From a virus, in IMG/VR virus record IMGVR_UViG_3300033153_004969, positions 13,615-45,512 of that record: DNA of 31,898 nucleotides; one strand, given 5' to 3'. The notes beneath the pieces are model-generated. The model did no database searches. It was given only the letters and a program-made list of their open reading frames with translations, and was not told the DNA's origin. How positions within the stretch are numbered: the first letter of the stretch is position 1; every line of letters starts with the position of its first letter. The translations under genes were made by a program, and so were the position numbers. Below, piece by piece: positions 3 through 19,732 of this stretch.

Positions 3-509
3 TACAACCCAAAGAAGTACTGGAATCAAAGAGCTAACAACTGGAACATAGAGGCACCAATCTATTTCAGCAAGGCTGAAGCCAAGAGGGTTAAGAACGA
101 GATTAAAGACATGGGTGCCGAGAACGTTATAGACATCGGTTGTGGTAACGGGCAATGGTCAGAACACCTGCCAGACGACTACTACGGCATAGACATCTCA
201 GACAAGTTGGTAGACATCTGTAAGGCAAACTACCCAGACAAGAAGTTTGATAACAAGCGCATGGAAGACCTAACTGGTGATAAGAAATATGATGTAGCAT
301 TCTGTCACACAGTGTTCCTACACATACCAGAAAGCGGCATGAAGAAGGCAATCAAAGGACTCAAGGCTGTTGCTAACAAAGCAATCATCATAGAGCCAGA
401 GAACGCCAAGACAATCAACTACCAACACGGCCACGACTTCGAGAAGTGGTTTGACGTAGAGAAGAAGCTACCGATGAAAGATAGAACACTATATGTAGTA
501 AACCTATGA
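3..509 (+). CDS. Class I SAM-dependent methyltransferase, 5' end outside window
   Basis: The open frame runs in from the left edge, so the true start is outside the window; an internal ATG at 111 is unlikely to be the start because the upstream part (YNPKKYWNQRANNW) looks like the usual N-terminus of small methyltransferases. The glycine loop VIDIGCGNGQW is motif I of class I methyltransferases, followed by an acidic strand end (YYGIDIS) and a DVAFCHTVFLHI segment typical of motif IV. The protein should transfer a methyl group from S-adenosylmethionine; the substrate cannot be read from the sequence. The gene overlaps the next one by ATGA and lies at the head of sugar-handling genes, so a sugar or glycan O/N-methyltransferase is a reasonable guess. 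Confidence 0.8.
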   Translation, partial: YNPKKYWNQRANNWNIEAPIYFSKAEAKRVKNEIKDMGAENVIDIGCGNGQWSEHLPDDYYGIDISDKLVDICKANYPDKKFDNKRMEDLTGDKKYDVAFCHTVFLHIPESGMKKAIKGLKAVANKAIIIEPENAKTINYQHGHDFEKWFDVEKKLPMKDRTLYVVNL

Positions 510-1357
510 AGAAAACAGTAACAATTGGGATGTTGTCCTACAACAGACCGCTGTTCCTTGCCAACTCCATACCTCAGATATTCGAGAAGGCTGGATATGA
601 CTTTAAGTTCATCCTATGGGACAACAACTGTAACGATGAAACCAAGTTAGTAGAAACGGCACTAGCTGAGAAGCATGGATTTGAAGTGGTAATGAACTCA
701 GAGAACATAGGGTTGCAAGGGTTACCGAACCTAGTGAATCTGATGGACACTGACTACTATGTACTGGTAGAAGACGACATGATTTACTTCCCAGAGAACT
801 GGCTCAAAGACCTAGTAGTAGCATTTGAGACTACACCAGAACTAGAGGAAGGAGACTCTAAGAAAGATGCTGAGTGGGGAGTGCTGGCAACCATGTGTTA
901 CGTAGATGAGGTAAACAACGGTGGCATGTGGCCAGAGAGGTGGGGTAACGCAGTTGAATACAAGAAAGATGGAATACGCTACATCGGACACGTCAACGCT
1001 GCTGGAGGAGCTATGATAATGCGAACCGACCTTGCCAAGAAGTATATAACCACAGAGATGAGGTTCTTCACTAGAGGGATAGAGAGCTTCATTAAAAGGT
1101 TTGAAGAAAATGGTTACTTACTAGCTCATGTACATGACATCTGTATCTACCACGCAGCCAGTCCCTTCTACAACCAACTGTATAGAGAGCCCTGGGCAGC
1201 TAAGCAGGAGGGTGGAACCATAGAGGAGGGGTTCAAGGCGTTCGAGAAGATGGGTGACTTTAACTTCAAGGATAACGACTGGATACTCACCCTGCTAAAG
1301 AACGGACTATTTGAAGAATATGTAAAGAAACTTAAACCATTGGAGATAAAACTATGA
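506..1357 (+). CDS. GT-A fold glycosyltransferase (GT2-like)
   Basis: This 283-residue protein begins with a GT-A Rossmann-like strand (TVTIGMLSYNRPLFL) and has WDNNCND near residue 38 and the acidic metal/nucleotide-sugar motif VLVEDDMIYF, with EDD at residues 89-91. A later GHVNAAGGAMIMR segment fits the acceptor side of family 2-type transferases. It probably moves a sugar from a nucleotide donor to an acceptor in the cytoplasm; no membrane segment is seen. Start and stop are both coupled to neighbours by ATGA overlaps (506-509 and 1354-1357), so it is translated with the upstream methyltransferase and the downstream epimerase. Donor and acceptor are unknown. Confidence 0.85.
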   Translation: MKKTVTIGMLSYNRPLFLANSIPQIFEKAGYDFKFILWDNNCNDETKLVETALAEKHGFEVVMNSENIGLQGLPNLVNLMDTDYYVLVEDDMIYFPENWLKDLVVAFETTPELEEGDSKKDAEWGVLATMCYVDEVNNGGMWPERWGNAVEYKKDGIRYIGHVNAAGGAMIMRTDLAKKYITTEMRFFTRGIESFIKRFEENGYLLAHVHDICIYHAASPFYNQLYREPWAAKQEGGTIEEGFKAFEKMGDFNFKDNDWILTLLKNGLFEEYVKKLKPLEIKL

Positions 1358-2229
1358 AGTACAAAAGAGCATTGATTACAGGAGGAGAAGGATTTATAGG
1401 AATACATCTTAGTAAAAGGTTGCGCGAACTTGGGACTGATTCGATATGGATGGATACTAAAAGCAACAGGGACGTACGTGATGAACAAGAAGTTAAAGCA
1501 GCAATAGAATTGTTTAGTCCAGACATTATATTCTCACTAGCCTCTACTGCTGGCATTGACCGAGTAGCTGCTGACCCACAAGGAACCATTGAAACTAACA
1601 TCAATGGAGTCCAAAACCTCCTGAAGCACAAGGGGGGCGCAAAGCTGGTTCACTTCTCCACATCAGAGGCATACGGAGAGAGGGCCGACAGGAACAAAGA
1701 GACTGACGCTACTCACGTAGGAGCAGCAGGTAATCCACGTTGGACATACCAAGCCTCAAAGGTTTGTGCTGACCACCTAATACTAGCCTCAGATGACGAT
1801 GCTCTAGTAATCAGGCCATTCAACGTATTCGGAGACCACCAGGTAGGACACGGAGCCATAGCTGACTTTATAGACTGGGGGCTCAAGGGCGAAGGAATAA
1901 AGATATATGGAGAAGGAGACCAACTCAGAGCCTGGATATATATCGAAGATTTTCTAGACGCTGTACTGATGCTTGTAGAAAAGGATGCCAAGGGTATCTT
2001 CAACGTCGGCGACCCAAACAACCCCATAACCATTAAAGAGTTAGCGGAAGAGATTGCCAAAGAAACTGGTGGCGGTAGTGAACTCTACTACGAACCACTC
2101 AGAGAAGTGGACGTATTCTATCGTGTTCCAGACATCGCTAAGCTACAAGAGCTTACTGGATGGGAACCAACACGTTATTTCCTGGGAGCACTCAAGCAAG
2201 TAATTAATTTTAAGAGGCACAATGCCTAA
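1354..2229 (+). CDS. NAD-dependent NDP-sugar epimerase/dehydratase (extended SDR)
   Basis: The 291-residue product has the nucleotide-binding GGEGFIG motif at residues 10-16, the STS active-site strand at 102-104 and the catalytic YxxxK as YQASK (Tyr132, Lys136). VIRPFNVFGDHQ is the usual substrate-domain segment of this family. These are the marks of extended short-chain dehydrogenases acting on nucleotide sugars, such as UDP-glucose 4-epimerase or GDP/dTDP-hexose dehydratases; which reaction applies cannot be decided here. Length is slightly short for the family (about 310-340). It lies between two glycosyltransferases with 4- and 8-base overlaps, so it probably makes or converts the sugar donor they use. 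Confidence 0.9.
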   Translation: MKYKRALITGGEGFIGIHLSKRLRELGTDSIWMDTKSNRDVRDEQEVKAAIELFSPDIIFSLASTAGIDRVAADPQGTIETNINGVQNLLKHKGGAKLVHFSTSEAYGERADRNKETDATHVGAAGNPRWTYQASKVCADHLILASDDDALVIRPFNVFGDHQVGHGAIADFIDWGLKGEGIKIYGEGDQLRAWIYIEDFLDAVLMLVEKDAKGIFNVGDPNNPITIKELAEEIAKETGGGSELYYEPLREVDVFYRVPDIAKLQELTGWEPTRYFLGALKQVINFKRHNA

Positions 2230-2986
2230 AGTATCAGTAGTAATGCCAACGTATAACCGAGGTTATTGTTTAGCTGAGTCTATCCAGTCAATCCTTGACC
2301 AGACGTTTGAGGACTGGGAACTAATCATCGTTGACGATGGCTCTACAGATGACACAGAAGGCGTTGTAAGGGCCTTTAAGGACAAGAGAATCATATACAA
2401 GAAGCTAGACCATACGGGCCATATAGGGGCTGTGAGGAACGCTGGCAACGCACTAGCTAAGGCAGACATTATTGTGGTTCAGGATTCAGATGATATGTCC
2501 CACCCAAACAGACTAGGGGTAATTCTAAATCACTTTAAAGATAACGACGCAGATGTTGTGTATCACGCACTTACACAAGATTTCAATGGCAAAAAGACAC
2601 CAGTGGAAGCTATGGATTACGACCGAAAGAAGATACTCTTTGAGCAATACCTGCCAGGGCAGTGTGCCTACAAGAAGTCTCTATGGGAGAAGTATCCTTA
2701 CGATGAAGAAACCCTGGTGCTAGACGATATGATTCTACACACCCACTTCTCACTGAACAACGCTAAGTATGGATGTATAAAGGAATCTCTCTACAGCTAC
2801 AACGTTAAAGGAGATTCAATCAATAGATTCGGACAACTCGGAGACCAATTTGAAAAAGATATGTGGAAGTTCCTAGAGATGCTGTACAAGACGTATGGAA
2901 TCATAATGGAATACACACTAGACAAAAAAGATAAAGAAGGCAACGTAATTAACAGAAAGGTTCTAGTATGGAAAACAAAACCCTAG
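2222..2986 (+). CDS. Family 2 glycosyltransferase
   Basis: This is a textbook GT2 N-terminal domain: VSVVMPTYNRGYCLAESIQS, then LIIVDDGSTDDTE with the DDGS nucleotide-binding motif at residues 38-41, and VVQDSDDMSHPNR carrying the DxD-type metal motif at about 88-91. At 254 residues it is a single catalytic domain without membrane anchors. It should transfer a sugar from a nucleotide donor with inversion. It overlaps the epimerase upstream by 8 bases and the UDP-GlcNAc 2-epimerase downstream by 19 bases. The acceptor could be a virion protein, phage DNA or a host surface glycan; nothing in the protein decides this. Confidence 0.92.
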   Translation: MPKVSVVMPTYNRGYCLAESIQSILDQTFEDWELIIVDDGSTDDTEGVVRAFKDKRIIYKKLDHTGHIGAVRNAGNALAKADIIVVQDSDDMSHPNRLGVILNHFKDNDADVVYHALTQDFNGKKTPVEAMDYDRKKILFEQYLPGQCAYKKSLWEKYPYDEETLVLDDMILHTHFSLNNAKYGCIKESLYSYNVKGDSINRFGQLGDQFEKDMWKFLEMLYKTYGIIMEYTLDKKDKEGNVINRKVLVWKTKP

Positions 2987-3957
2987 CAATTATTGGTACC
3001 AGACCACAGTACCTAAAAATCTCACGCAAGTGGGCTGATGTTGTGGTTGATACTGGACAACACTACGACAAAGAGATGACCAATGACAGCCCTAAGATTG
3101 ACTACAACCTAAATACAACAGACCTCGGTGAAATGGTTAGCCAGTCCATAAGCATCATTGAACAAGAGAAGCCAAATATAGTGCTAGTGGTAGGAGATAC
3201 CAAGTCTACATACGCAGGTGCAATGGCAGCTAAGTACTGTGGTAAGTTCCTAATCCATTTAGAGGCTGGTATGCGCGTAGATGAAGACACCCAAGAGAAT
3301 AGAATCAGAATGGCAGTAGACAGACTATCTGACTGCTGGCTATGTACTAATGACCAATGTAAATACAATCTAGAGGATGAAGGGTTCATAAACAACATAG
3401 TTATTGTGGGAGACCCAGCATTTGATGCTCTCAGGATGACCACACCGCATGAAGGCAAGGAGTGGGAGAACACAGAGGAAGAACCATACAACCTGTTAAC
3501 CCTACATAGGGCAGAACTGGTAGATGACTTCAAGAAGTTCCAGGGAGTGCTAGACGCTCTAGGAGAGACCAAGAAGAACTTTATCTGGCCAATCCATCCA
3601 CGCATCAGACAGGAAGAGGTCAAGATACCAAAGAACATCAAACTAATAGACCCAACAGACCATAAGGGATTGTTACGACTGATGAACCACGCTGAGATGG
3701 TGGTCACTGATAGTGGTGGAGTCCAGAGAGAAGCTTACTGGCTAGTGAAACCAGTAATCATTATCAGAGAACATACAGAGCATCTTGAGATTATTGAAAG
3801 AAACTGTGGGGTCCTAACTGGATTTGATAAGAAACAAATTACCAAAGCTATATTAACCTTTAAGAGTGCTGGAGTACCAGAGCTCCCAATAACACAAACT
3901 CATGAAAGAATCGAAGCAACAATCGAAGACATTGAAGGGCTACCTGATACATGTTAA
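2968..3957 (+). CDS. wecB: UDP-N-acetylglucosamine 2-epimerase (WecB/MnaA family)
   Basis: The family converts UDP-GlcNAc to UDP-ManNAc in the cytoplasm. The sequence has the N-terminal IIGTRPQYLK strand-loop, DTGQHYDKEM, VVGDTKSTYAGA (Asp77), FLIHLEAGMR (Glu99), Glu110 in TQENR, LTLHRAE (His180) and the nucleotide-binding VTDSGGVQREAYW. These line up with the catalytic Asp/Glu/Glu/His set known for Escherichia coli WecB, so it looks active. It is 329 residues, shorter than the usual roughly 370, and the normal HRREN motif reads HRAEL. It overlaps the upstream glycosyltransferase by 19 bases and the downstream one by 56. It implies a ManNAc-type donor for the cassette. Confidence 0.9.
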   Translation: MENKTLAIIGTRPQYLKISRKWADVVVDTGQHYDKEMTNDSPKIDYNLNTTDLGEMVSQSISIIEQEKPNIVLVVGDTKSTYAGAMAAKYCGKFLIHLEAGMRVDEDTQENRIRMAVDRLSDCWLCTNDQCKYNLEDEGFINNIVIVGDPAFDALRMTTPHEGKEWENTEEEPYNLLTLHRAELVDDFKKFQGVLDALGETKKNFIWPIHPRIRQEEVKIPKNIKLIDPTDHKGLLRLMNHAEMVVTDSGGVQREAYWLVKPVIIIREHTEHLEIIERNCGVLTGFDKKQITKAILTFKSAGVPELPITQTHERIEATIEDIEGLPDTC

Positions 3958-5113
3958 TGACGGTGTAACCTACCACAGACATATAGCCCCAATTAAAGCC
4001 ATGGAAGGCTGGAAGTTTGAATACCCATTTTTTGATGGTGGTAGAACGGATATGAACGAACAAGAAGATGAGGAGATGCACACTCAAATCAAGAAGAGTG
4101 ACATCCTTGTTACCCAGAGAAATGATATAGACAGATACATAGCGGCTAGTCAGCTGATTCAAGCTGGATACAAGATACCTTGGGTATATGACACTGATGA
4201 TGACGTACACGCTGTCAGACCAAGTAACCCAGGGTTCAGGAGCTATGGGGTGAACTCACAGCACAAGAAGTGGGCAATCATGGCCATTGAGAGAGCTTTT
4301 GCCCTTACTGTTAGCACAGAGCCACTAAAGAAGGTGTATAAAGACCTCAACAAAAGGATTTACGTCTTGCCAAACGGTGTAGACCTAGCCAGGTGGGACC
4401 AACACCCTAGAGGCGAGAAGCCTAAAGACGAGATTAGACTCGGCATGCTGGTGTCAGCAGGACATTGGGAGAACATCAGGATGATAGAAGATGTCTTGAA
4501 AGAGATTCTAAAAGCATATCCAAATGTAATACTCTACACATATCTAGGCTATAAAACTGTCTACATGAAGGGTACCCCAAAGGACCAGATTAAATGGACC
4601 AAATGGGCATCAGCAGAAGACTGGCCAAAGATGTGTAAGGGATTGGCATTAGATATAGGGCTGGCTCCATTAGTAGAAAATGGTTTCAATATAAGCAAAT
4701 CTAATCTGCGCTGGCTAGAGAACACAGCCCAAGGGATACCAACCGTGGCATCAGATGTAGTCCCGTATAGGACAGCTAACGATGACGCTATCATGCTATG
4801 TAGAACGGAAACAGAGTGGTTTGATGCTATTAGCAAGCTAATAGAAGACGAAGAACTGCGCAGAACAGTGGCAGAGAACGCCAGGAAACAGGTAGAGAAA
4901 GAGTTTACCACTAAGGTGGTAGCCAAGAAGTATAATAAAGTATATAGAGAGATAATTAAAGACTTTAAGGAAATATATGGAGAACCCCACAGGGACGACA
5001 ACTACAGGGGAGTCAGCATCAAACGCATCGAGGATACTATCAAGTCCCGCGCAAAGGACATCCACGAAGGAAACGTCGGAAAGAGGAAGCGAAGCCCAGC
5101 AGTTTCCAAATAG
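3902..5113 (+). CDS. GT-B fold glycosyltransferase (GT4-like)
   Basis: The 403-residue protein has a GT-B layout. The N-terminal half includes YLIHVNDGVTYHRH and a WVYDTDDDVHA segment at about residues 94-103. The linker and C-terminal nucleotide-sugar domain start near LPNGVDLARW at 156-165 and contain DIGLAPLVENGFN followed by KSNLRWLENTAQGIPTVASD (about 266-285), the usual donor-binding block of family 4 enzymes. The start overlaps the 2-epimerase by 56 bases; the next in-frame Met is at residue 34 and would cut off the first strand, so 3902 is preferred although no good ribosome site precedes it. It closes the sugar cassette. Confidence 0.85.
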   Translation: MKESKQQSKTLKGYLIHVNDGVTYHRHIAPIKAMEGWKFEYPFFDGGRTDMNEQEDEEMHTQIKKSDILVTQRNDIDRYIAASQLIQAGYKIPWVYDTDDDVHAVRPSNPGFRSYGVNSQHKKWAIMAIERAFALTVSTEPLKKVYKDLNKRIYVLPNGVDLARWDQHPRGEKPKDEIRLGMLVSAGHWENIRMIEDVLKEILKAYPNVILYTYLGYKTVYMKGTPKDQIKWTKWASAEDWPKMCKGLALDIGLAPLVENGFNISKSNLRWLENTAQGIPTVASDVVPYRTANDDAIMLCRTETEWFDAISKLIEDEELRRTVAENARKQVEKEFTTKVVAKKYNKVYREIIKDFKEIYGEPHRDDNYRGVSIKRIEDTIKSRAKDIHEGNVGKRKRSPAVSK

Positions 5114-5132
5114 GGAGGGGATAGAACCGCCA

Positions 5133-5627
5133 ATGACTGAATATGAGCACTACGAGGGTAGTCCTTATTCTGTTACCTTCTTTGAGCTAGATGGTTATAG
5201 GATGGGTGATAGCAAGGAGTTCGACCAGTGGTATGTCAAAGCAGAGTCTATCGAGAGGTGGGCTAGAAGCCAGATAAAGACCAGGGGGCTAGAGGATAAG
5301 CTAGAAGTCTATGATTACCTGATACAGGAGACGGCAGACAAGCTCGGACTCTCACAGCACACCAACAAGCTAATGCTGCTAGACAGTATCTATAACCATA
5401 CCCAAAAGGATGTTAAACCTGATACGCGTGCTAAAATTAGAAGAGTAAGGGAGAAGCTGTCTAACGAGCACGAACAGAGCAAACAACGGCTGAAGACACG
5501 TCTGACCAATGAACAGAAAAAGACTGAAGAAGCTCTCTCACTAGCATTAAAAGATATTAGAAAGTTAAAGAGAGAGAAAAACGATGGGTTACGGAGTAGA
5601 CGAAAACCAGGCAGCAAAAAGTCTTGA
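5133..5627 (+). CDS. Hypothetical phage protein with coiled-coil, basic C-terminus
   Basis: The start at 5133 is chosen because GGGAGGGG at 5113-5120 is an ideal ribosome site, 19 bases after the previous stop; the open frame extends further upstream only inside the glycosyltransferase gene. The 164-residue product has a mixed N-terminal part (SPYSVTFFELDGYRMG) and, from about residue 95, a long charged helix rich in K, E and R that is likely a coiled coil, ending in RSRRKPGSKKS. No family is recognised. It overlaps the next gene by 44 bases and sits between the sugar cassette and the tail fibre, so a small virion or assembly role is possible. Confidence 0.7.
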   Translation: MTEYEHYEGSPYSVTFFELDGYRMGDSKEFDQWYVKAESIERWARSQIKTRGLEDKLEVYDYLIQETADKLGLSQHTNKLMLLDSIYNHTQKDVKPDTRAKIRRVREKLSNEHEQSKQRLKTRLTNEQKKTEEALSLALKDIRKLKREKNDGLRSRRKPGSKKS

Positions 5628-5960: not shown

Positions 5961-8897
5961 ATTCCATTTAAATTCAACCCTTTTACAGTGAATCTGGACA
6001 AGGTAATAGATGATACTACCTTTAATTTTTACAATGGTGCTTTTCAGGAACATTTTAATGCTTTAGCCACCTCTAACGGCACAGTGATAACAATGACCCT
6101 TACAAACTCTGCTGGTGGAGATTACATGACTGAGCAGTGGTCTAGTGGCAACCGCAAGTTTGATGTTAGTGGTGGTGGTGCAACTATCGTACTTGAAGTT
6201 GGAACAGACACGGTTCCCAAGATGAACTACGTCTATAGGTTAGAGTCAGACAATATTTTAACTAGTAGTATATCAGGCTTCCCAACGGGTGTAGAACATA
6301 TTAAAATCTCATCTTTTTATGTCCAAAGCGCTACAGCGGTAGATACAGACGGTCCGCTAATCACTCACAACTGGAATGATGGACTGCAAGGTGACAATGG
6401 CCAAGGGCACATGGCTCACATGGCAGAGCGCATCCGTAGAGATGGAGCTTATTACTTCTCAGGACTAGGTCCTAACGGAACAGACCAAGCACCAGTTCAA
6501 TCGTATTTTGACTATGTAAGTGGAAGTGAGTCATACTTCAAAATGACATCTGGTGTTATTTATCAGATGCACGAACACACAATCTCAGCATTTGACTCAA
6601 GCCAAGCTGGAGACCATTTACAGGTTATTAACTGGTTTGGAGATTTCTTTCACGAAGTCAGCGACTTAACAGATATTGTAGACGATTCTACTGGCACGGG
6701 ATTGGCTAATAAATACTTCAACCTATTCTTCTTTGCAGTAGGCAACAAGGGTGGAACTCACTCACCTATGATGTGTCAGGTTCCAAATGGTAGCTATTCA
6801 ACTCAAACCGCTGCCGAGAATGATGTTGATGGTTATGATAATCTAGCGATGCCTAGAGAATTCGCATTAGATTCATCTACTGGAGTGCCAATTTGTAGAA
6901 TGACTTTAAGGTGGTCTGGTGCAAACCTCACACACATCTCTACAACTGACCTTAGAAGCGATGGTATTACAGCGGGTGGAGGAGGGACTGGCTCATTAGT
7001 TGAGTTCCCTGACAACCAATTTACAATATTTGATGACGGTGACGTAAGTAGGATTGCTACCTTTCAGGCCTCAGGTATTACTACTGGGAACACAAGAGAA
7101 TACACCTTCCCAGATGCAGACGGCATCCTTGCCTTAACCTCACAATCAGACGGAACAATAGACCATGGAGCGGACTTAGCAGGACTTACAGATGACGACC
7201 ACTCTGGTTATCTTTGGTTGGCTGGTAGAGCAGGTGGACAAGTAGCATACGGTGGTGTTAATGCTGGAGATGACTTAACTTTACACTCTGGGACTGCCGA
7301 CTCTAAAGACTTTATCGGTATATATGGTGGTGCTGGGTTGCTACTAAACGTAACCACTGGAGAACAGGTTACATTTGTTGAAAACGATACTGGATTTGCA
7401 AACTACAATAGAACTCTCGTTACAGTATCAACAGATGCCACAGACTCTAATTGGTGGAATTTTGCTGGAGACTCAGTAACTACTGGAACCGTTCTTAGGA
7501 TGGATGCATCTGCATTAACTGGTGCTGGTAAATACATAGACCTAGATGGTGATTTTTATGTTCAAGACGGAGGCGATGTCACTCAACAGGGAGACTTATA
7601 CTTAGCTGGTTCTAATAAAGAACTAAGATTCTACGAAGGTGCTAACTACGTAGGCTTTGAAGCACCTGCTTTAGCCGCTGACCAGATATGGGTGTTACCT
7701 AATGCAGATGGAGGAGCTAGTGAGTTCTTACAAACAGATGGTGGTGGTAACTTAACTTGGGCTGCTGGTGGAGGTGGAGGTGGAACTGACTGGGACATTA
7801 CAGCCGACGCAGGTGGAAGTTCGACCATAACTGATGAAGATATTTTAGATATTACTGGTGGAACAGGTATTGATACTACGCTTAGTGGTGCTGGCCCATA
7901 CCTTGTAACACTTGATTTCGATAGTACAGAAATAGGCACAACTACTTGGGGTAGTGGTTCTGATATCGATTGGACATTTAATGTCGGAGCAGTTACAACC
8001 GACCCATTGATAGAATTTATAGACGGTGGTGCAGACTCGATAGCAAGAATAACAGCAGACGACATAAGGTTGGCTTCCTCTGACATTACTATTGGTCAGC
8101 ACGCTGGAGTAAATCCCACAGTTAATATACCTTCTCGCTACTTCACCATAAAAAACGGTTCACAGGGCACAGCGCAGGAATTTAGAATGTACGATGGTGA
8201 TTATTTTGTTGGGTTCAAAGCCCATACAGGTATACCAGGACTCGTTGCTGATGTCATGTGGGAGCTACCAAAAGTAGATGGTTCCGATGGACAAGTGTTA
8301 ACAACGGATGGCTCAGAAATTTTGAGTTTTGAAGATACTGTAGACACATATTCCAAACGAGTAAAATGTCAGGTTATATCCTATGGTGCAGCCACATTAG
8401 AACCCACTGCTGGTAGACATACACTTGCAACAACACCCGCAACCCCAGCTATTGTTGGTGGACCAATCATTCCATACACTGGGATGGAAAAGGGCGACCA
8501 AGTTGTAGTAACTGCAACGCTCCCAGACACATATGTAACTGGAAGTGCAATAGTTCTTAGAATAGTATTCGGTGCTACTGTAGCTTCTGGCACAGCATCA
8601 ATTACACTAGATGGACACACACTGGGTACTGACCTGGTTGCTGGTAATGATGTAGACGCTAATATGGCATATCACGCTAACGATGCAGCAGTATCGCTAA
8701 CAGTTACAGCTGCAAATACTAACAAATTTTTGGTTAATTCAGCATTTGAAGTAACAGACGGTAGTGGTGAGCTAGATGATGGAACAGACCCAAATATTGA
8801 CCTTGTTGCTGGAGACGTAGTTTGGACAACTTTTGCTAGGTCTGATTCAGAAGCTGAACTATTAAGAATCTATTCTGTAGAATTTGCGTGGGACTAA
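5961..8897 (+). CDS. Large tail fibre / receptor-binding protein, probable ATT start
   Basis: Long low-complexity beta protein rich in G, D, T and S, as in phage fibres. Modules recur: RFYEGANYVGFEAP...WVLPNADG (about 7627-7710) and RMYDGDYFVGFKA...WELPKVDG (about 8184-8283), each followed by a 'TDG' segment, plus poly-Gly linkers near 7770. The conventional start would be GTG at 5988 (969 residues), but it has no ribosome site. The frame is open upstream and encodes IPFKFNPFTVNLD, a sequence I associate with the N-terminus of such fibres (usually MPFKFNPFTG), and AGGGGG at 5951-5956 is placed for ATT at 5961. I therefore extend it to 5961 (978 residues). The C-terminus ends in a beta-sandwich-like region likely to contact the receptor. 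Confidence 0.8.
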   Translation: MPFKFNPFTVNLDKVIDDTTFNFYNGAFQEHFNALATSNGTVITMTLTNSAGGDYMTEQWSSGNRKFDVSGGGATIVLEVGTDTVPKMNYVYRLESDNILTSSISGFPTGVEHIKISSFYVQSATAVDTDGPLITHNWNDGLQGDNGQGHMAHMAERIRRDGAYYFSGLGPNGTDQAPVQSYFDYVSGSESYFKMTSGVIYQMHEHTISAFDSSQAGDHLQVINWFGDFFHEVSDLTDIVDDSTGTGLANKYFNLFFFAVGNKGGTHSPMMCQVPNGSYSTQTAAENDVDGYDNLAMPREFALDSSTGVPICRMTLRWSGANLTHISTTDLRSDGITAGGGGTGSLVEFPDNQFTIFDDGDVSRIATFQASGITTGNTREYTFPDADGILALTSQSDGTIDHGADLAGLTDDDHSGYLWLAGRAGGQVAYGGVNAGDDLTLHSGTADSKDFIGIYGGAGLLLNVTTGEQVTFVENDTGFANYNRTLVTVSTDATDSNWWNFAGDSVTTGTVLRMDASALTGAGKYIDLDGDFYVQDGGDVTQQGDLYLAGSNKELRFYEGANYVGFEAPALAADQIWVLPNADGGASEFLQTDGGGNLTWAAGGGGGGTDWDITADAGGSSTITDEDILDITGGTGIDTTLSGAGPYLVTLDFDSTEIGTTTWGSGSDIDWTFNVGAVTTDPLIEFIDGGADSIARITADDIRLASSDITIGQHAGVNPTVNIPSRYFTIKNGSQGTAQEFRMYDGDYFVGFKAHTGIPGLVADVMWELPKVDGSDGQVLTTDGSEILSFEDTVDTYSKRVKCQVISYGAATLEPTAGRHTLATTPATPAIVGGPIIPYTGMEKGDQVVVTATLPDTYVTGSAIVLRIVFGATVASGTASITLDGHTLGTDLVAGNDVDANMAYHANDAAVSLTVTAANTNKFLVNSAFEVTDGSGELDDGTDPNIDLVAGDVVWTTFARSDSEAELLRIYSVEFAWD

Positions 8898-8898
8898 T

Positions 8899-9915
8899 AT
8901 GACTTTTCAATCTATATGGGGAGCATTAACAAACATAGGTAACGATACCGATACGACAGTTACCACTAATACTGTTTTTGTAACTGCTTCGGTTGGTAGC
9001 CCAAGTGTTTATAGATTTAGAGGCCTGACTATAAACTCTGGTGTTACAGCAACCTTCGGTCAAAATGATGCAATCGGGACATCTTATGCCGCTGTTGTTT
9101 TATGTAATGGAGATGTAACCATTAACGGGACAATCAACACTAGTTTCGTTGTGTCTATTCCTGGAGCCGTACCAGCGTTTAACTGGGACGGAGCTACCTC
9201 TGGTGGCGCTGGAAGTGCTGTGGCTGGTGGTACCGCTGGAACTGCAGCCGCGACAACCCCGACCATCGACCAACTACTACACGGAGACGAGACACAAACA
9301 GATTTAGACTATAGAAGATTTTATATATATGAACAATGGAAGAACGCAGGTGGAGGTGGGACTGGTTACGGCATTGATACTGCTATCGGTGGTTTCCCCG
9401 CTGGTGCAATAGTTATTGTTGCTAAGGGCAAAATAACAATGGGTTCATCTGGAACCATTGCAATGGGCGGAATTGCAGGACAAACTTCTATATCTGTAAA
9501 CCCCGCAGGGGGAGGTGGTGGTGGTGGCGGAGGTCTTGTTGGACTAATTTCATACCACAGTATAGTTATCCCATCTGGTGCTGTTGTGGACGCCTCTGGT
9601 GGAGCTGGGGGTTGGGGTAATCCAGCAGGAAGCTTTCTATATGTAGCTGGAGGTGGCGGAGGCGGAGGAGGCACCATCATGTCGGCTGCTCCAGTTGTTA
9701 CAGTTGGTGGAACTTTAAATGTTGCTGGTGGTATGGCTGGTATCGGAACACCTGGTCGTGGCAGAAGTGGCGTATATGGTGGTGGAGGTGGTGGTGGTTC
9801 TATAGGAGCTGGTGGTAGGGGCGGTCATACTGCCTTACCTGGTCCAGCTACACCTGGTGCTGCTGGTGTCAAACCAGTATTGACAGGCACAGTAAACCTA
9901 GGACTAGTAGCATGA
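8899..9915 (+). CDS. Glycine-rich phage adhesin / fibre tip protein
   Basis: The start is ATG 8899, one base after the fibre stop; an in-frame TTG at 8884 would lie inside the fibre gene. The first 150 residues are beta-like (FRGLTINSGVTATFG, VVLCNGDVTINGTI), as in phage glycine-rich surface proteins. From about residue 155 there are at least four poly-glycine blocks (for example GGGGGGGGG and YVAGGGGGGGGT) separated by short variable loops. In T-even-type gp38 adhesins, glycine-rich blocks pack into a polyglycine II sandwich and the loops between them bind the receptor; the arrangement here is similar but homology is not shown. The gene follows the main fibre and overlaps the next gene by ATGA. 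Confidence 0.75.
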   Translation: MTFQSIWGALTNIGNDTDTTVTTNTVFVTASVGSPSVYRFRGLTINSGVTATFGQNDAIGTSYAAVVLCNGDVTINGTINTSFVVSIPGAVPAFNWDGATSGGAGSAVAGGTAGTAAATTPTIDQLLHGDETQTDLDYRRFYIYEQWKNAGGGGTGYGIDTAIGGFPAGAIVIVAKGKITMGSSGTIAMGGIAGQTSISVNPAGGGGGGGGGLVGLISYHSIVIPSGAVVDASGGAGGWGNPAGSFLYVAGGGGGGGGTIMSAAPVVTVGGTLNVAGGMAGIGTPGRGRSGVYGGGGGGGSIGAGGRGGHTALPGPATPGAAGVKPVLTGTVNLGLVA

Positions 9916-10409
9916 AGTTTACCAAGGACAAGATACTGACAGATGATGGACTTGTTGTGATGCACAGCGATGAAACCCCAATGTGCAAACAAGTTATTCA
10001 GACATTCCACCAGAGAAAGAGTGTTTTAGAGCTTGGTCTTGGCATGGCAATAACAGCCAAACTCATAGATGAATTTATGAAACCAGAGATTCACGACATA
10101 GTTGAAGAAAGCCAAGAAGTTATAGATGAATACGGAGACAAGAAGTGGAACATCATCAAATGTAGTGATGCTGAGTTTGAACCAGACAAGAAATACGATT
10201 TTATACTATTAGATACCTTCCCAATGTGGAGCACACCCCTAGAGAAGTGGGTACCACACCTAAATCCAGGCGGAGTTATCACCTGGTTAGGATTTGTTAC
10301 TGGTAATGAAACTGGTAGAGATGACCTCCCCAGATACTACATGGACTGTGATGGGAGAAAATACACTCAATACTTCTATCAGGCGGAACCCCTTAAACCT
10401 GGTATATAA
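9912..10409 (+). CDS. SAM-dependent methyltransferase (spermidine synthase-like fold)
   Basis: This 165-residue protein contains a class I methyltransferase core: SVLELGLGMAITAK is the glycine loop (motif I), HDIVEESQEVIDEY gives the acidic residue after strand 2, and YDFILLDTFPMW with LNPGGVITW matches the motif IV/V region seen in spermidine-synthase-like enzymes. The ATG overlaps the adhesin stop (ATGA), so the two are co-translated. Its place between an adhesin and the adaptor protein suggests it modifies a virion protein or a surface sugar; the substrate is not visible. It is the second methyltransferase in the window. Confidence 0.8.
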   Translation: MKFTKDKILTDDGLVVMHSDETPMCKQVIQTFHQRKSVLELGLGMAITAKLIDEFMKPEIHDIVEESQEVIDEYGDKKWNIIKCSDAEFEPDKKYDFILLDTFPMWSTPLEKWVPHLNPGGVITWLGFVTGNETGRDDLPRYYMDCDGRKYTQYFYQAEPLKPGI

Positions 10410-10410
10410 T
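10405..10410 (+). promoter_or_regulatory. TATAAT box 7 bases before the adaptor gene start
   Basis: A perfect TATAAT lies at 10405-10410 inside GGTATATAATTAAGTC, immediately before ATG 10417. No convincing -35 box is seen at the right spacing and there is no ribosome site in front of the ATG. If used, transcription would begin at about the start codon, giving a leaderless message. Similar TATAATTA motifs occur at 12610 and 18127. Confidence 0.35.
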
Positions 10411-10416
10411 TAAGTC

Positions 10417-11097
10417 ATGGATAGCGGCGATATATTACTCGAAGTAGCAAGAAACACCAACCGAAACATTTCGGCCATTTCAGCCAATGGTGGTATAGAC
10501 CTTATTAACGCCTGGCAAAGAGACTGGTCTACTAGATGGCCTTACATGCCCTCTCTACAGACCTCAGCCACTGTTACGGTATCTGCCAATACAAGGACCT
10601 ACTCCTTATCTGCCAGTTTAGATAAGATTTATGATATGACAGTCCCAGAGTTCTCTGCCAAGCTAAAGAAGGTAACGATAGAACAGATGAACTCTTTTGC
10701 TCCATCAGCCAGCAGTGTGGTAGGCAATCCTAAGTACTGGGCACCATTCGGACGCAGACAGATTATACTTTTCCCTACACCTGCAGCAGCTTACGACATT
10801 AACTACTACATGTATGAGAACTACATCCCAGTATCTGCTACCAGCAACACCCCAATTTCAATAGACACTAAATACCATGACGGTGCAGTCTGGTATACAA
10901 CCTGGAGAATGGCACAACGCATGGGAGACCCAGGGACGCAAGAGACTGCTAAAAGGGAATACGACAGGATTTTTGATGCAGCCGTATCAGACATGGCAAC
11001 AAGGTTCGCAGGAGCCAACAGTGTAAAGGTCGGTGGAGACTATACCTCTAACGGGTTTGATGACGCGGATAAGGCGACCCGAATGTTCTGGAACTAA
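10417..11097 (+). CDS. Head-tail adaptor / tail tubular protein A-like
   Basis: The 226-residue protein looks like podovirus adaptor proteins that sit under the portal: an N-terminal helical part (INAWQRDWSTRWPYM), a beta insert with YSLSASLDKIYDMTVPE, a conserved-looking QIILFPTPAAAYDINYYMYENY strand pair, and a C-terminal helical part (DGAVWYTTWRMAQRMGDP then EYDRIFDAAVSDMATRF). This pattern of early helix, beta barrel and DGAV..Y helical tail is the family hallmark I rely on; no search was possible. It is followed one base later by the nozzle-like gene, which matches the order of tail tubular proteins A and B. No ribosome site is visible. Confidence 0.6.
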   Translation: MDSGDILLEVARNTNRNISAISANGGIDLINAWQRDWSTRWPYMPSLQTSATVTVSANTRTYSLSASLDKIYDMTVPEFSAKLKKVTIEQMNSFAPSASSVVGNPKYWAPFGRRQIILFPTPAAAYDINYYMYENYIPVSATSNTPISIDTKYHDGAVWYTTWRMAQRMGDPGTQETAKREYDRIFDAAVSDMATRFAGANSVKVGGDYTSNGFDDADKATRMFWN

Positions 11098-11098
11098 G

Positions 11099-12607
11099 AT
11101 GGCGGAACTAAAAGCAGCCAAATTTGTTGACTTCAAACAAGGCATCCAATCTGATACCGATGACTACGCTAACGGCGTAGATTTTATGTCTGGGGTGAAC
11201 TTTACTAAAGACCCTAATGTTTTCAGGTCTAATGTTCGCATGAGCGTGATGACAGAGGCAGCAGCCACAGATGACATCACAACCCTAATCACTCAGTTTG
11301 CCATGTATAACGAAGGCGCTGGAGCTATTATGTATGGTATAGGTGGGCAGAAGATATATGGACTTAGTGCATTTACTTCTGGTACTTGGACGCGTTTACA
11401 TACAGACGGAAACTCAGTGTCCAATGGAAGCATAGCTGTATTCGGAACCAATCTCTACTGGTCATCCAACGCCAAGTTGGGCAAGTATGTCGGTTCAACA
11501 ACTACGTGGACAGACTCTTTTAAGGATTTAGCGGTAAACGATGGCAGTTATCATCCACTAGTCAACTTCGCTGGAAAGCTTATGGTAGGTGCCGGTAGGT
11601 ACGTAGCCACACTAGATGCTGATGGAACAACTTGGGATGATACCGCACTCACACTGCCACTCAACTCTCGCATTTTTGATATGAAGGTATGGAACGACAG
11701 AATAGCCATACTGGTAGATGTTCTAACTGGTAAACGTGTGACCAAGATTTACTTCTGGGACGGTTCTTCTGATACCTATAACGAAGAGGTAACCATAGAT
11801 GAACCAACACCTAGAGCTCTCGTTGATTATTTCAACCATTTGATGGTGTTCAACAGAGACGGAAGAATATTTGAATATGATGGAGCTTCTCTAAACCTAG
11901 TGCGCTCACTACCCAACGTGTCCCCAGAGACGGGTGCAAGCCTTACGGTCAACCCTGGAGGCATCACAATACACAATAACGACCTATTGTTCGGCCTCAC
12001 AGGCACCAATTCAGACTTTAAAGATGGCGTATGGGCATTCTCTAGACTTGATGTCACCCATCCGATAGCACTAAACTACCACACCCCAACCTCTAACAGG
12101 AATCAGACAGACACTATAGGTGCAGTATTTGCAGCTAGCAGTGGAGACCTATACTTAGCCTGGCAGAGTGGAGCAGCTTATGGAGTAGACGTTTCAAACG
12201 CCAACAACTACCTTTTGTCATCCTGGGCAGCTGGTCCAACCCATACCCCACTTTCATATATAGACACAGTTCACCACTCCTTAGGAGACAGACTGCAAGA
12301 TGTAGTCATCATGGGTGTAGAAGTTCATGTAGCAGAGAAGCCTGCTGTAGTCGGGCTGTCTACAGGTTTAGACAGTACGGTAACAATTTTCACCAATCCA
12401 GACAAATCTGGAACCTATACAGAGCAAGACATCCTCTATGAACTCAACACTTGGGATAAGGTTCACTGGTTCAGTACCCCTGTAGAATGTCGCTCTATGC
12501 AGCTTAGATTGTCGCTTTCAAACCCAGTAGCTGGAGCAGGAGAGACTAACATCAGGGGCTATACAATCTATTACCAAGAGAGGGGCCCTCTTTTCGCCAG
12601 GGAGTAA
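11099..12607 (+). CDS. Tail nozzle / tail tubular protein B-like, beta-propeller
   Basis: The start is ATG 11099, just after the previous stop; the open frame to 11033 overlaps the adaptor gene and is not needed. The 502-residue protein is beta-rich with recurring strand patterns such as YGIGGQKIYGLSAFTSGTWTR, FGTNLYWSSNAKLGKYV, LMVGAGRYVATLDADG and MVFNRDGRIFEYDGAS, suggesting a multi-bladed propeller, then a C-terminal beta-sandwich (CRSMQLRLSLSNP). Podovirus nozzle proteins are built around a propeller, and the gene directly follows the adaptor, so a tail nozzle is the best call. A cell-surface binding propeller is an alternative. Confidence 0.6.
   Translation: MAELKAAKFVDFKQGIQSDTDDYANGVDFMSGVNFTKDPNVFRSNVRMSVMTEAAATDDITTLITQFAMYNEGAGAIMYGIGGQKIYGLSAFTSGTWTRLHTDGNSVSNGSIAVFGTNLYWSSNAKLGKYVGSTTTWTDSFKDLAVNDGSYHPLVNFAGKLMVGAGRYVATLDADGTTWDDTALTLPLNSRIFDMKVWNDRIAILVDVLTGKRVTKIYFWDGSSDTYNEEVTIDEPTPRALVDYFNHLMVFNRDGRIFEYDGASLNLVRSLPNVSPETGASLTVNPGGITIHNNDLLFGLTGTNSDFKDGVWAFSRLDVTHPIALNYHTPTSNRNQTDTIGAVFAASSGDLYLAWQSGAAYGVDVSNANNYLLSSWAAGPTHTPLSYIDTVHHSLGDRLQDVVIMGVEVHVAEKPAVVGLSTGLDSTVTIFTNPDKSGTYTEQDILYELNTWDKVHWFSTPVECRSMQLRLSLSNPVAGAGETNIRGYTIYYQERGPLFARE
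12576..12594 (+). terminator. Weak hairpin with T run at the end of the nozzle gene
   Basis: AAGAGAGG at 12576-12583 pairs with CCTCTTTT at 12587-12594 around a GGC loop (one G-T pair), and the T run is part of the stem. It lies inside the last codons of the nozzle gene, just before a TATAAT box at 12610. It may attenuate transcription, but the U tract does not extend beyond the stem. Confidence 0.25.
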
Positions 12608-12609
12608 GG

Positions 12610-12615
12610 TATAAT
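12610..12615 (+). promoter_or_regulatory. TATAAT box before the 59-residue ORF
   Basis: GGTATAATTAAG at 12608-12619 contains a perfect TATAAT whose last base is 10 bases before ATG 12625. No -35 match is visible. The same TATAATTA core precedes genes at 10417 and 18142. An AAGAGG ribosome site overlaps its downstream edge. Confidence 0.3.
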
Positions 12616-12624
12616 TAAGAGGTT

Positions 12625-12804
12625 ATGGCCAAACAATACAAAAAAGTTGAAGACGGAGAGATGGAAGTGAAAATTTCCTCTACTAAGACAAATACCAAGA
12701 CAGAAATCCATAACATAGAAGATATAACAGTAAGCAGAGACAGCCACAAAGAAGAGTACGAGAGATTAGACGACCTTCTGAAGGAGTGGGATAAGATTAA
12801 ATAG
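12625..12804 (+). CDS. Small charged protein in virion module
   Basis: A 59-residue ORF starts at ATG 12625 after AAGAGG and ends two bases before the next start. It is highly charged (MAKQYKKVEDGEMEVK at the start; KEEYERLDDLLKEWDKIK at the end) with a probable C-terminal amphipathic helix. Codon use looks like the neighbours and it fills the gap between two virion genes exactly, which supports it as real. No family is recognised; a small virion or scaffolding-type protein is possible. Confidence 0.65.
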   Translation: MAKQYKKVEDGEMEVKISSTKTNTKTEIHNIEDITVSRDSHKEEYERLDDLLKEWDKIK

Positions 12805-12806
12805 CT

Positions 12807-13934
<1,128 letters not shown>

Positions 13935-13949
13935 GAAGGAGCGGCAACT

Positions 13950-16928
13950 ATGGCTACGCTAAAGCAACTCCTAGAACAAAACAAACAAGGTTCCTCTAAC
14001 GACTACCAGCGAGCAGCAATAGCTGAACGCGAGTCTTTAATAAAACAAGTTGGCGGTAGAGTACCAGAGAAGAAGAAACCTAAGGTAGGTTTCCTTCAAC
14101 GTTTAAGTATTATAGGAGATAGTCTTGGTGCAGTCATCAGAACTGGCATCTTCGCAGCCATGACACCAGAGAAGGAATCAGTACTAGGTGCAGCAGCAGG
14201 AGCATTGGTTGATAGAACCAAACGTAAATACGGCTCAGACCTGCTAGATGAGATGGGTGTTACCAACAAATATGGTAAGGCTATAGGTGGCTTCGCTTTA
14301 GATATGGCACTAGACCCACTCTCATGGGTAACTGGTGGTGCTGGAGGGCTCTTCTTTAAAGGTTCTACAGTGATGAATAAAGCTGGCAAACTGCTTACTC
14401 TAAACAAGGCTGGAACCAAAGCATTACAACAAACACTGTCAAAAATACCAAAAGTAGTCAGACCAGCTGGTGTCACTCACCAAGGAGAAATTACTCGATT
14501 TGCCGAACTGTTAGGTAGGGAATCGAAACTAGCCGAAGCCTTTATAGATAAGGGTGGTATTAAGTTTATGGGTGCACAAACTCCATTAACAGCAGCCAAG
14601 CTGGGCAGACTAGCACAGGTGACAGGTATCTCATTGATGGCAAACAAATTCTCTAAAACAGCACTAGGCAAGGCTGGAACAGCTATTGCTGAACTTTTGG
14701 TACCTGATAAAAAATATGCAAACATGCTCAAGGCAGCCAACATAGGACCAGATGAAGCAAACCAACTATTGGCTTTAAGGGCTGGTTCCCGTGGTGCTAA
14801 GTCATTAGCCATAACCGACAGAACAGAGTTCCTCAAAGAGAACTACAAAACAGTAATCGAACACGCAGATACCATCGGGATAACCAGTGGAAACAAGGCG
14901 GAAAGGATTGCCCATGGCATGACGTACGCAGCTGAGGGTGACCAGGTAGCGGCACAAATAGCAAGGGAGTTTGGTGAAGGTCCACAAGGATGGGACAGAG
15001 CAGCGCAACAGCTATATGATGCTGAGTACGCAGCCCAAATTGAAAGAGGTACAAGCGTTAGAAAGGCCATAGTAGCTGCGAAGAAAAAGAAACAAAGACT
15101 TACAGACGGCAAGCTAATAATAGATGCCATGAATGGAACTGCATTTCCCCCAGCGTTACAAGACGTTTATCAGGGTGTCTTAAGAGAATACAAAGGCATC
15201 GCAGAGAGAGATAGAGCGCTAGGGTTCATCCGTAGCAAATTGGACGACTACATATATAGAGGGACAAAAAGAGTCACCCCTGGTGGTGGAGCATTCGGAA
15301 GAGTATCCAAAGCAGGTATCACAGGAACGCATGGCAAAGAGAGAGTCTTTGACACTATTTTAGATATAGATTTAGCAGCTAACTGGGAAAGAGAGTATGA
15401 CTTCTTTAAAGGAGTTACTATTCGTGGAACCACCAGTGACGTAAATGCTGTTAACAAACTTTATGTAAACAACCTAGCCAAGATGGCTGGGGTGCCAAAA
15501 GCAGCCAACAAAAGCATTCCGCCTGGTTGGGTAGACGGCTCATCACTCAAGATTCCTGGTGTTAAGGGAACATTCAAAGGCATCATGGTGCCACAAGCTA
15601 TAGCTGATGACCTTGTAAAAGCAACCAAACCATTCCTAGATACCACAGAAAGCAAAGCACTCCTCTCTGGACTAGAAACCTATATGAACCAATGGAAGAC
15701 AGGCGTAACTGTATACTGGCCAGCTTTCCACATTAGAAACGCTGTCTCTAACGTATTCAACGCCTCCTATCTAGGTGGTGCTGATATGAAGGTATTCACA
15801 GAGTCTATGAAATACCAGAAGGCCATATCCACAGGAGTTGGACTAGATGACATAGTAAAGGGTACTGGGCTCACAGTCAGACAATTACAAGAGGAAATGA
15901 TAAAGCACAACCTCTGGGGCTTTGGTGGACAGACCCAACAGGCACTCACTGGTCCACAAGGAGCAAGGATGCTAAACAGAGCACTGGGCAAGGGGAGTAA
16001 CAAGGTTCACGACTTTGCTATGGGCGTCGGTAACACTATAGAAACAAACTCTAAGATGGGCTCCTTTATAGACAGGCTTCGCAAGGGCGACTCACTAGAC
16101 AACGCCGCAATGCACGTCAAGAAGTTCTTATTTGATTATGACGACCTAACAGATTTTGAGAGAGGAACAATGAAACATTTGATTCCCTTCTATACATGGA
16201 TACGCAAGAACACACCACTACAGATTGAACAGATGTTAAAGAAACCAGGCAAGTTCCTTGGGCTTGGAAGGGCAATGGACGCAGCTGGTAGAGCCTTCGG
16301 TGAAGAACTAACCCCAGAAGAACAAGCAATGTTACCAGACTTCGCTATGGCTGGTATAGGGCTAGACAAAATAAACCTAGGCAAGGATAAGAACGGTAAG
16401 TTCAGAACCATCCTTTCCCTTGGTCTACCATATGAAGACCTGGACAAACTTGGTCAAGCTGGTAAAGAGATACTAGGTTCACTCACCCCACCACTTAAAT
16501 ACATCCTAGAGGAAATATCTGGTAAGGAGTTCTTTAGGAACAAACCGTTAGAGGAAGCCAACAAGGTATCACAGTCCACTGGGTATCTAATTGAGAACTT
16601 TGCATCAGACAAGGTAAAAGAGCTATTAAGTTTCAGCAAAAAAACTACAGACTTTGGCACAACCTACAGGCTCAACCCCAAACTGGTTCACTTCTTAGGG
16701 CAAGCACCTATTACACGTGCTGGTTCTACATTGAGAAAACTAGAGAGTCTAACCGACTCAGAACGAGACACTATCGGCACAGCCCTCAGTCTTATAGTTG
16801 GTATGAACACATACAACGCAGAGGCTACATCCTACTTCAGAAACCAAGAGAGATTAGAAGAACTCAATAAAGTAATAGACGAGTTATATCCAAAGATAAA
16901 GAAGTTTGAAAGGCTTTGGATACCATAA
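13950..16928 (+). CDS. Giant internal virion / DNA-ejection type protein
   Basis: GAAGGAG at 13935-13941 precedes the ATG. The 992-residue protein has an N-terminal basic segment (PEKKKPKVGFLQR), a hydrophobic glycine-rich region (about 55-140, including GGFALDMALDPLSW), a long helical middle, and a block around residues 720-770 reading KKFLFDYDDLTDFERGTMK then LIPFYTWIRKNTPLQ. That last block is one I recognise from very large phage internal or polyvalent proteins in many phages. It ends with helices (LEELNKVIDELYPKIKKFE). Short-tailed phages eject proteins of this size with DNA, and no separate tape measure is visible. A membrane-channel role is inferred only. Confidence 0.6.
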   Translation: MATLKQLLEQNKQGSSNDYQRAAIAERESLIKQVGGRVPEKKKPKVGFLQRLSIIGDSLGAVIRTGIFAAMTPEKESVLGAAAGALVDRTKRKYGSDLLDEMGVTNKYGKAIGGFALDMALDPLSWVTGGAGGLFFKGSTVMNKAGKLLTLNKAGTKALQQTLSKIPKVVRPAGVTHQGEITRFAELLGRESKLAEAFIDKGGIKFMGAQTPLTAAKLGRLAQVTGISLMANKFSKTALGKAGTAIAELLVPDKKYANMLKAANIGPDEANQLLALRAGSRGAKSLAITDRTEFLKENYKTVIEHADTIGITSGNKAERIAHGMTYAAEGDQVAAQIAREFGEGPQGWDRAAQQLYDAEYAAQIERGTSVRKAIVAAKKKKQRLTDGKLIIDAMNGTAFPPALQDVYQGVLREYKGIAERDRALGFIRSKLDDYIYRGTKRVTPGGGAFGRVSKAGITGTHGKERVFDTILDIDLAANWEREYDFFKGVTIRGTTSDVNAVNKLYVNNLAKMAGVPKAANKSIPPGWVDGSSLKIPGVKGTFKGIMVPQAIADDLVKATKPFLDTTESKALLSGLETYMNQWKTGVTVYWPAFHIRNAVSNVFNASYLGGADMKVFTESMKYQKAISTGVGLDDIVKGTGLTVRQLQEEMIKHNLWGFGGQTQQALTGPQGARMLNRALGKGSNKVHDFAMGVGNTIETNSKMGSFIDRLRKGDSLDNAAMHVKKFLFDYDDLTDFERGTMKHLIPFYTWIRKNTPLQIEQMLKKPGKFLGLGRAMDAAGRAFGEELTPEEQAMLPDFAMAGIGLDKINLGKDKNGKFRTILSLGLPYEDLDKLGQAGKEILGSLTPPLKYILEEISGKEFFRNKPLEEANKVSQSTGYLIENFASDKVKELLSFSKKTTDFGTTYRLNPKLVHFLGQAPITRAGSTLRKLESLTDSERDTIGTALSLIVGMNTYNAEATSYFRNQERLEELNKVIDELYPKIKKFERLWIP

Positions 16929-18118: not shown

Positions 18119-18126
18119 ACCACTGA

Positions 18127-18132: not shown

Positions 18133-18141
18133 TAGATAGCA

Positions 18142-18354: not shown

Positions 18355-18359
18355 GCTCC

Positions 18360-19670: not shown

Positions 19671-19674
19671 CCAG

Positions 19675-19703: not shown

Positions 19704-19732
19704 ACTGCCTACCAATTTAACTAAGGAGGGGT

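Follow-up and report, generated by a model that had tools for sequence, protein, structure and literature searches.

A capsid-linked cassette of nucleotide-sugar and glycosyltransferase genes in a phage lineage with N4-like capsid proteins, and its probable role in virion glycosylation

The DNA analyzed here is a stretch of 31,898 nucleotides (the window), which occupies positions 13615-45512 of the 45.5-kb IMG/VR virus record IMGVR_UViG_3300033153_004969; the remainder of the record is called L003 and keeps the same numbering. A reading made from the letters of the window alone (the sequence-only reading) had described five overlapping genes for sugar-donor synthesis and sugar transfer, preceded by a methyltransferase gene, inside a phage structural operon. 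We confirmed all six open reading frames (ORFs) at their coordinates, and Pfam and PHROGs bore out the five gene families. The overlaps also proved correct, being 4 bases with the methyltransferase ORF and then 4, 8, 19, and 56 bases between the five cassette ORFs. The labels SDR, GT2, and methyltransferase (MT) are used below at the superfamily level. The genes of this part of the locus are as follows.

3-509, + strand: methyltransferase domain (Methyltransf_25, 6e-12; DIGCGNG motif), probable C-terminal part of a fusion with the glycosyltransferase GT2x
506-1357, + strand: GT2-like (GT-A) glycosyltransferase (Glycos_transf_2, 1.9e-7; EDD motif)
1354-2229, + strand: extended SDR (SDR3), a nucleoside diphosphate (NDP)-sugar epimerase/dehydratase/decarboxylase (NAD-epimerase of Pfam, 1.4e-41)
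2222-2986, + strand: GT2 glycosyltransferase, part of a conserved glycosyltransferase (GT) trio, in a conserved position after GT2x (Glycos_transf_2, 3.5e-32; DSD motif)
2968-3957, + strand: non-hydrolysing UDP-sugar 2-epimerase of the WecB/WbpI superfamily (Epimerase_2, 2.4e-61)
3902-5113, + strand: GT-B glycosyltransferase, final member of the GT trio (glycosyltransferase family phrog_7162, 1.5e-35)
4977-5627, + strand, start more likely at the ATG at 5134: small protein conserved beside the cassette (33 ORFs in relatives)
10417-11097, + strand: SU10-type head-tail adaptor (PF24175, 2.9e-19), a marker of the structural genes 3' of the cassette

Intact catalytic motifs had been claimed for all of the enzymes. 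The claim holds for the methyltransferase, both GT-A proteins, the SDR (GxxGxxG and YxxxK both present), and the 2-epimerase, which has the motifs GDT, LEAG, QENR, and HRAE and conserves D77, E99, E110, and H180; it is not borne out for GT-B, in which simple motif patterns revealed no canonical acidic signature. The solved chains closest to SDR3 were 8vr2 and UDP-glucuronate decarboxylase. The cassette was also said to run directly into fibre genes, but the small ORF at 4977-5627 intervenes between it and the long fibre-like ORF of the window. This ORF matched no Pfam or PHROG family. In the 33 loci where its family occurs, it lies mostly directly 3' of the GT-B gene and sometimes of the 2-epimerase or adaptor gene.

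The cassette is about twice the size seen in the window. That is, it does not start at 506 but about 6.8 kb before the window begins, about 0.26 kb 3' of the gene for the major capsid protein (MCP). L003 carries the head genes for the terminase, the portal, a putative scaffold, and the MCP (a match to phrog_1357, 5.5e-51), and the complete cassette, with 12-13 genes in about 12 kb, extends over approximately 6845-18727 of the record, flanked by the MCP gene on the left and by the fibre and adaptor genes on the right. By Pfam and PHROGs, four GT proteins are encoded in the whole cassette. Its upstream genes are as follows.

L003 6845-7765: SDR1
L003 7747-8469: short NDP-sugar dehydrogenase-like protein (about 240 aa, GGHC motif)
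L003 8450-9016: hexapeptide acetyltransferase
L003 9051-10061: DegT aminotransferase
L003 10058-11083: SDR2
L003 11119-11916: Gfo/Idh oxidoreductase, WbpB-like
L003 11913 to about 13607: GT2x, a two-domain glycosyltransferase

A scaffold gap of 7 N at L003 13608-13614, immediately before window base 1, splits GT2x from the methyltransferase. The reading frame is open through the gap, and because both gap ends share the octamer AATACAAC, the contigs on either side probably overlap. In the relative L002, all three domains lie in one ORF of 746 aa that spans the gap position. These observations together indicate that the methyltransferase of the window is most likely the C-terminal end of a three-domain GT2x-methyltransferase protein. 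Thus, the domain had been recognized correctly, but it probably does not form a gene of its own. The predicted structure of GT2x (predicted local distance difference test, pLDDT, 92.9) has in its first half a GT-A fold like that of SpsA, AvpGT, and chondroitin synthase, and the second half matches Glycos_transf_1 weakly.

A strong hairpin with a T run is located at L003 6605-6635, directly 3' of the MCP gene and 5' of the cassette (folding z = -4.5). It is a strong terminator, as supported by the folding; the terminator scan did not pick it up, and the promoter scan of the locus stayed at chance level. Paenibacillus phage API480 has an annotated terminator at the same spot behind its MCP gene. 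The GC (guanine plus cytosine) content is 0.440-0.445 in the cassette and 0.442 in the head genes.

Relatives were collected from IMG/VR by protein-guided peptide-pattern scans, which yield a sample rather than a full census, and their gene maps were made by iterated labelling of ORFs with hidden Markov models. The scans found GT2x in 63 contigs, the MCP in 60, and the 2-epimerase in 54. In the layout that recurs, TerL, portal, and MCP are followed by donor genes that vary, GT2x (in some cases fused to the methyltransferase), GT2, in some cases the 2-epimerase, GT-B, in some cases the small ORF, and the adaptor. Because it recurs in about 50 separate contigs, whose MCPs go down to about 25-30% identity, the arrangement is more than chance; the conserved gene order in relatives on which the sequence-only reading had staked itself does exist. 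The MCP gene lies upstream of GT2x in 73 loci (some of which share a contig) at a median distance of 3.1 kb, and in several loci the open frame of GT2x starts at most about 60 bases from the MCP stop. After merging of overlapping loci, and with the window's own genome counted, 52 relatives were cassette-positive, 12 were negative (at least 7 kb of downstream sequence without a cassette), and 29 were undecided. GT-B was present in 48 of the 52 positives. The short NDP-sugar-dehydrogenase-like family (about 240 aa) with the conserved GGHC occurred in 40 fetched loci, for example at L003 7747-8469 and L086 6955-7668.

Some loci depart from this layout. Four GT2x-labelled loci were without an upstream MCP. 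The GT2x-labelled ORFs of L136, L217, and L218 have no upstream MCP of the same type and are either true exceptions or label errors; L211 is truncated before it reaches its MCP, and the overlapping locus L135 contains that MCP. L113 and L124 carry their SDR, short dehydrogenase, and DegT genes upstream of the portal gene, with the GT trio still behind the MCP; in these loci the donor genes move and the transferases stay put. In loci L220-L259, from larger phage contigs (many over 40 kb), a 2-epimerase lies within an unrelated polysaccharide-type cluster, and no MCP of the same type is linked to it.

The cassette follows the capsid gene in descent. In an MCP tree of 88 rows, the 49 positives used and the 12 negatives separated completely into two parts, which amounts to a single change; many positives came through the GT2x scan, so that the tree is enriched for cassette-positives, and the MCP scan by itself gave the same split with few long positives. 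The identities of GT2x, GT2, GT-B, 2-epimerase, DegT, SDR, Gfo/Idh, and short dehydrogenase track MCP identity with Spearman coefficients of 0.47-0.75, as compared with 0.60 for TerL and 0.44 for the portal; each p value of 0.002 is the floor of 500 permutations, and these correlations, like the co-occurrence tests, carry phylogenetic dependence. The 2-epimerases of 20 MCP-linked loci and of L219, also MCP-linked, formed one clade with a support of 99 (SH-aLRT, a likelihood-ratio branch test), outside which fell all 40 cellular sequences (half of the best 80 from one scan) and all 29 sequences of other phages. The 2-epimerases of L220-L259 likewise fell outside it. Across an MCP clade of deep divergence, the layout, the link to the MCP, and the 2-epimerase clade have all been kept. 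The equal GC content, the separate 2-epimerase clade, and the MCP-tracking identities speak against a recent origin in a surface locus of the host. A gene order that is not conserved and a recent transfer from the host were among the refuting conditions set by the sequence-only reading, and on both of these computable points the reading stands. The cassette looks as if it has been inherited together with the capsid gene over a long time, with sugar-coating as a core part of virus construction.

Outside these relatives, the junction behind the MCP gene is occupied differently. The isolates Paenibacillus phage API480 and Pseudoalteromonas phage vB_Pun_Y3, whose MCPs are related, share the order TerL-portal-scaffold-MCP, but no sugar gene is annotated at this junction. 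The metagenomic podovirus ctQWt234 from Manatee Spring (MW202801.1, complete, 40 kb) has a GT, a methyltransferase, a NodB-like protein, and another GT between the MCP and a stabilisation protein, but no nucleotide-sugar synthesis genes among the annotated products of that interval. Because the cassette splits the MCP tree, the isolates have no sugar gene there, and ctQWt234 has other glycan genes there, the junction behaves as a lineage-specific glycan locus. A complete donor-plus-transferase set had been called unusual; this is true against the isolated phages examined, but members of the lineage carry the cassette as a rule. The segment in the window is best explained as the 3' half of a glycan module that is linked to the capsid gene, in a lineage of phages whose capsid proteins are N4-like.

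Which sugar the module supplies can be considered from the similarities of the donor enzymes. UDP-ManNAc3NAcA is made from UDP-N-acetylglucosamine (UDP-GlcNAc) by a 6-dehydrogenase, 3-dehydrogenase, aminotransferase, N-acetyltransferase, and 2-epimerase, namely, WbpA, B, E, D, and I (PMC10622841). Judged by its sequence, the Gfo/Idh protein is clearly WbpB-like and a putative 3-dehydrogenase, its best solved chains being WbpB (85.6 and 79.9 bits). The hexapeptide acetyltransferase scored 75 bits with QdtC and 69 bits with the lipopolysaccharide (LPS) acetyltransferase 3mqg, and DegT scored 176 bits with ArnB and 96 bits with WbpE. For the 2-epimerase, UDP-GlcNAc3NAcA 2-epimerases rank first at 127 bits; it scores 208 against PF02350, over the cut-off of 30.6, and 155 bits against TIGR00236, under the curated cut-off of 210.15. 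In 12 of 12 genomes Gfo/Idh occurs together with DegT, the acetyltransferase, and the 2-epimerase, and it occurs only there (Fisher p uncorrected for relatedness). A full-length WbpA was not found in the cassette, only the diverged 240-aa relative with the GGHC cysteine, whose family match is weak and of partial length; the cassette therefore falls short of a complete Wbp pathway. Because WbpB-, WbpE-, and WbpD-like genes accompany the 2-epimerase, the donor is probably a Wbp-type 2,3-diamino sugar rather than the plain UDP-N-acetylmannosamine (UDP-ManNAc) that had been proposed; that the phage carries a donor-plus-transferase set stands. As the normal first-step enzyme is missing, the host may supply the uronate, or the donor may instead be UDP-ManNAc3NAc; a second sugar may be contributed by the SDRs.

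The same genes could instead make a 4-amino-4,6-dideoxy sugar through an SDR 4,6-dehydratase, an ArnB/PseC-like aminotransferase, and a NeuD/VioB-like acetyltransferase; UDP-ManNAc would then be a separate product of the 2-epimerase, and the overall function of the cassette would be unchanged. The top-scoring models of DegT are indeed ArnB and PseC, the best model of SDR1 is the 4,6-dehydratase LegB, though under its cut-off, and two acetyltransferases, present in many relatives, would suit two pathways. The lead of UDP-GlcNAc3NAcA enzymes for the 2-epimerase is also narrow, the next UDP-GlcNAc 2-epimerase standing at 124 bits. However, Gfo/Idh is separated from the next non-WbpB chain, at 49 bits, and is confined to genomes with the other three enzymes. 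We therefore regard the 4-amino route as a serious contender against which we lean, and keep the 2,3-diamino type as the probable donor.

As for the acceptor, a simple hydropathy test found no transmembrane segment in the cassette enzyme families except for one GT-B outlier above the cut-off, and relatives have no multi-pass or flippase-like protein between the MCP and GT-B. From their sequences the enzymes look soluble. Without membrane parts, the acceptors that remain are cytoplasmic, that is, a virion protein, DNA, or a small molecule; of these, a virion protein is favoured by the linkage to the MCP and the co-inheritance with it. The MCP has an HK97 fold (model pLDDT 78.5), with the capsid of phage N4 as its best PDB match (9e99, E 7e-15). 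An MCP clade of 21 rows that includes this phage (the G000 subclade) carries an extra C-terminal tail of 19-45 residues, which is a low-confidence part of the model and is missing from nearly all other members. By analogy with the C-terminal glycans of mycobacteriophages, this tail is a candidate glycan site in the G000 subclade only; as a universal acceptor site it was rejected because it is essentially confined to that subclade.

We consider it fairly probable, and the explanation to be preferred, that the cassette carries out cytoplasmic glycosylation of a virion protein, with the MCP as the leading candidate, using one or more special sugars made by the phage, and that the product is a surface coat. 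Starting from UDP-GlcNAc of the host, soluble phage enzymes would produce at least one special nucleotide sugar through a Wbp-like sequence of 3-oxidation, amination, N-acetylation, and 2-epimerisation, and the SDRs would make further sugars. The constant soluble trio (the two-domain GT2x, GT2, and GT-B) would then assemble a short glycan on the virion protein, in the cytoplasm and during assembly. In the G000 subclade the fused methyltransferase would probably methylate the glycan, and the MCP tail would be the candidate site. The finished glycan would probably act as a surface coat. Several points weigh against this explanation: DegT is closer to ArnB than to WbpE, with only a short, diverged candidate for the WbpA step; most cassette-positive genomes have no MCP tail, so that the tail is not a general site; and fibre-like genes also adjoin the cassette and interrupt it in L086 and L123.

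The sequence-only reading had left a fibre, the capsid, or a host glycan as targets. That a tail fibre or other adsorption protein is the main target, and not the capsid, would agree with the fibre-like ORFs after the cassette in the window and inside it in L086 and L123, and with the small conserved ORF that bridges the cassette and the fibre genes. The constant left neighbour is nevertheless the MCP, sometimes with nearly no gap, and the fibre-like proteins of the window match one or two relative loci or none while the GT trio is kept; the capsid link is at least as tight as the fibre link, and we think a mainly fibre-directed cassette unlikely. Remodelling of the surface glycan of the infected host, for receptor masking or superinfection exclusion as in Gtr-type systems, is more improbable still. 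Weak-to-moderate GtrB-like PHROG matches are found among the cassette GTs, and phage nucleotide-sugar genes are commonly interpreted as host-directed (PMC10980836). However, Gtr-type serotype conversion uses a flippase and membrane-bound transferases, and the interval from the MCP to GT-B contains no GtrA/flippase-like, multi-pass, or membrane-anchored protein; the MCP linkage and co-inheritance would also be unexpected for a host-directed accessory.

Glycosylation of phage DNA bases is very improbable. Virus-encoded DNA-hypermodifying GTs have been reported, as cited in PMC12619734, but the scanned ORFs, which do not include all small ones, contain no hydroxymethylase, TET-like, or thymidylate-synthase-like partner, for which reason this reading was dropped. 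A multi-enzyme amino-sugar pathway beside a capsid gene is also not known as a layout for DNA glucosylation. The scaffold gap inside the cassette might raise the suspicion of an assembly chimera, or of a segment recently inserted from a polysaccharide locus of the host; this is hardly credible, being ruled out by the recurrence of the layout in separate contigs, the agreement of GC content with the head genes, and the 2-epimerase tree, while the L002 ORF spans the gap position. GT2x matches in six cellular genomes covered the N-terminal GT2 domain only.

Glycosylation of a virion protein thus remains the preferred explanation, and it can be compared with known systems. Freeman et al. reportedly described virion glycosylation in mycobacteriophages such as Che8 in 2023. 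Here, too, phage-encoded GTs are present and are genetically linked to virion genes. For Che8-type phages, PMC12619734, PMC11256854, and PMC12691614 describe virion glycosylation by phage-encoded GTs thought to act on the capsid protein, and PMC12619734 reports glycans at the C-termini of the capsid and tail-tube proteins, to which the extra MCP tail of the G000 subclade may correspond. In the relative Maravista, the GTs are described as lying near the far genome end, whereas the present locus lies behind the MCP; a multi-enzyme donor pathway, a different phage lineage, and a virion sugar that is putative rather than reported also set the present case apart. By this analogy, the module most likely works like mycobacteriophage virion glycosylation, with its own donor pathway and locus in a different lineage. 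It resembles the Wbp pathway in bringing WbpB-like, DegT, hexapeptide acetyltransferase, and 2-epimerase genes together, and differs from it in the missing full-length WbpA, the aminotransferase nearer ArnB, and the position in a phage head block; the cellular pathway supplies O-antigen. A Wbp-type sugar occurs at the C-terminus of secreted proteins in other bacteria, which is a precedent for the protein linkage only (PMC7468200). The larger-phage loci L220-L259 also combine virus-encoded nucleotide-sugar and GT genes, but without MCP linkage. In Streptomyces phage Zuko the layout is different, with genes for a GT and a UDP-glucose dehydrogenase preceding the terminase. Giant viruses, whose hosts are eukaryotic, encode glycan pathways with nucleotide-sugar and GT genes.

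Searches of the cassette (by nucleotide) and the adaptor protein against GenBank phages gave no match, and the latter result means that no close isolate is among them. No tRNAs, sought for host identification, were found; an MCP search of 285 genomes of one phylum, without a positive control, was empty and uninformative. Elsewhere in the window, the product of 16916-18118 has a Laminin_G_3/concanavalin-like lectin domain, matches the baseplate wedge tail fibre connector family, and is a possible sugar-binding adsorption protein. The genes at 18492-21526 encode an exonuclease (phrog_284), a protein with a dATP/dGTP diphosphohydrolase N-terminal domain, and an NT5C-type nucleotidase, which suggests nucleotide-pool manipulation.

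Few cases of glycosylated phage virions are known, and they are treated as exceptions. The present results suggest that a widespread phage lineage keeps a glycan module as faithfully as its capsid gene, with donor genes that vary like a serotype cassette. A broader view, that capsid glycosylation is ancestral and core to the whole lineage of uncultured, podovirus-type phages, the donor pathway and GT trio co-evolving with the MCP and the donor genes being swapped to vary the coat, is a tentative one that we put slightly short of even. GT2x, GT-B, and the MCP tail offer concrete handles on whether natural phages vary their coats, and the findings give reason for caution before genes of this kind are classed as host-directed "LPS" auxiliary metabolic genes.

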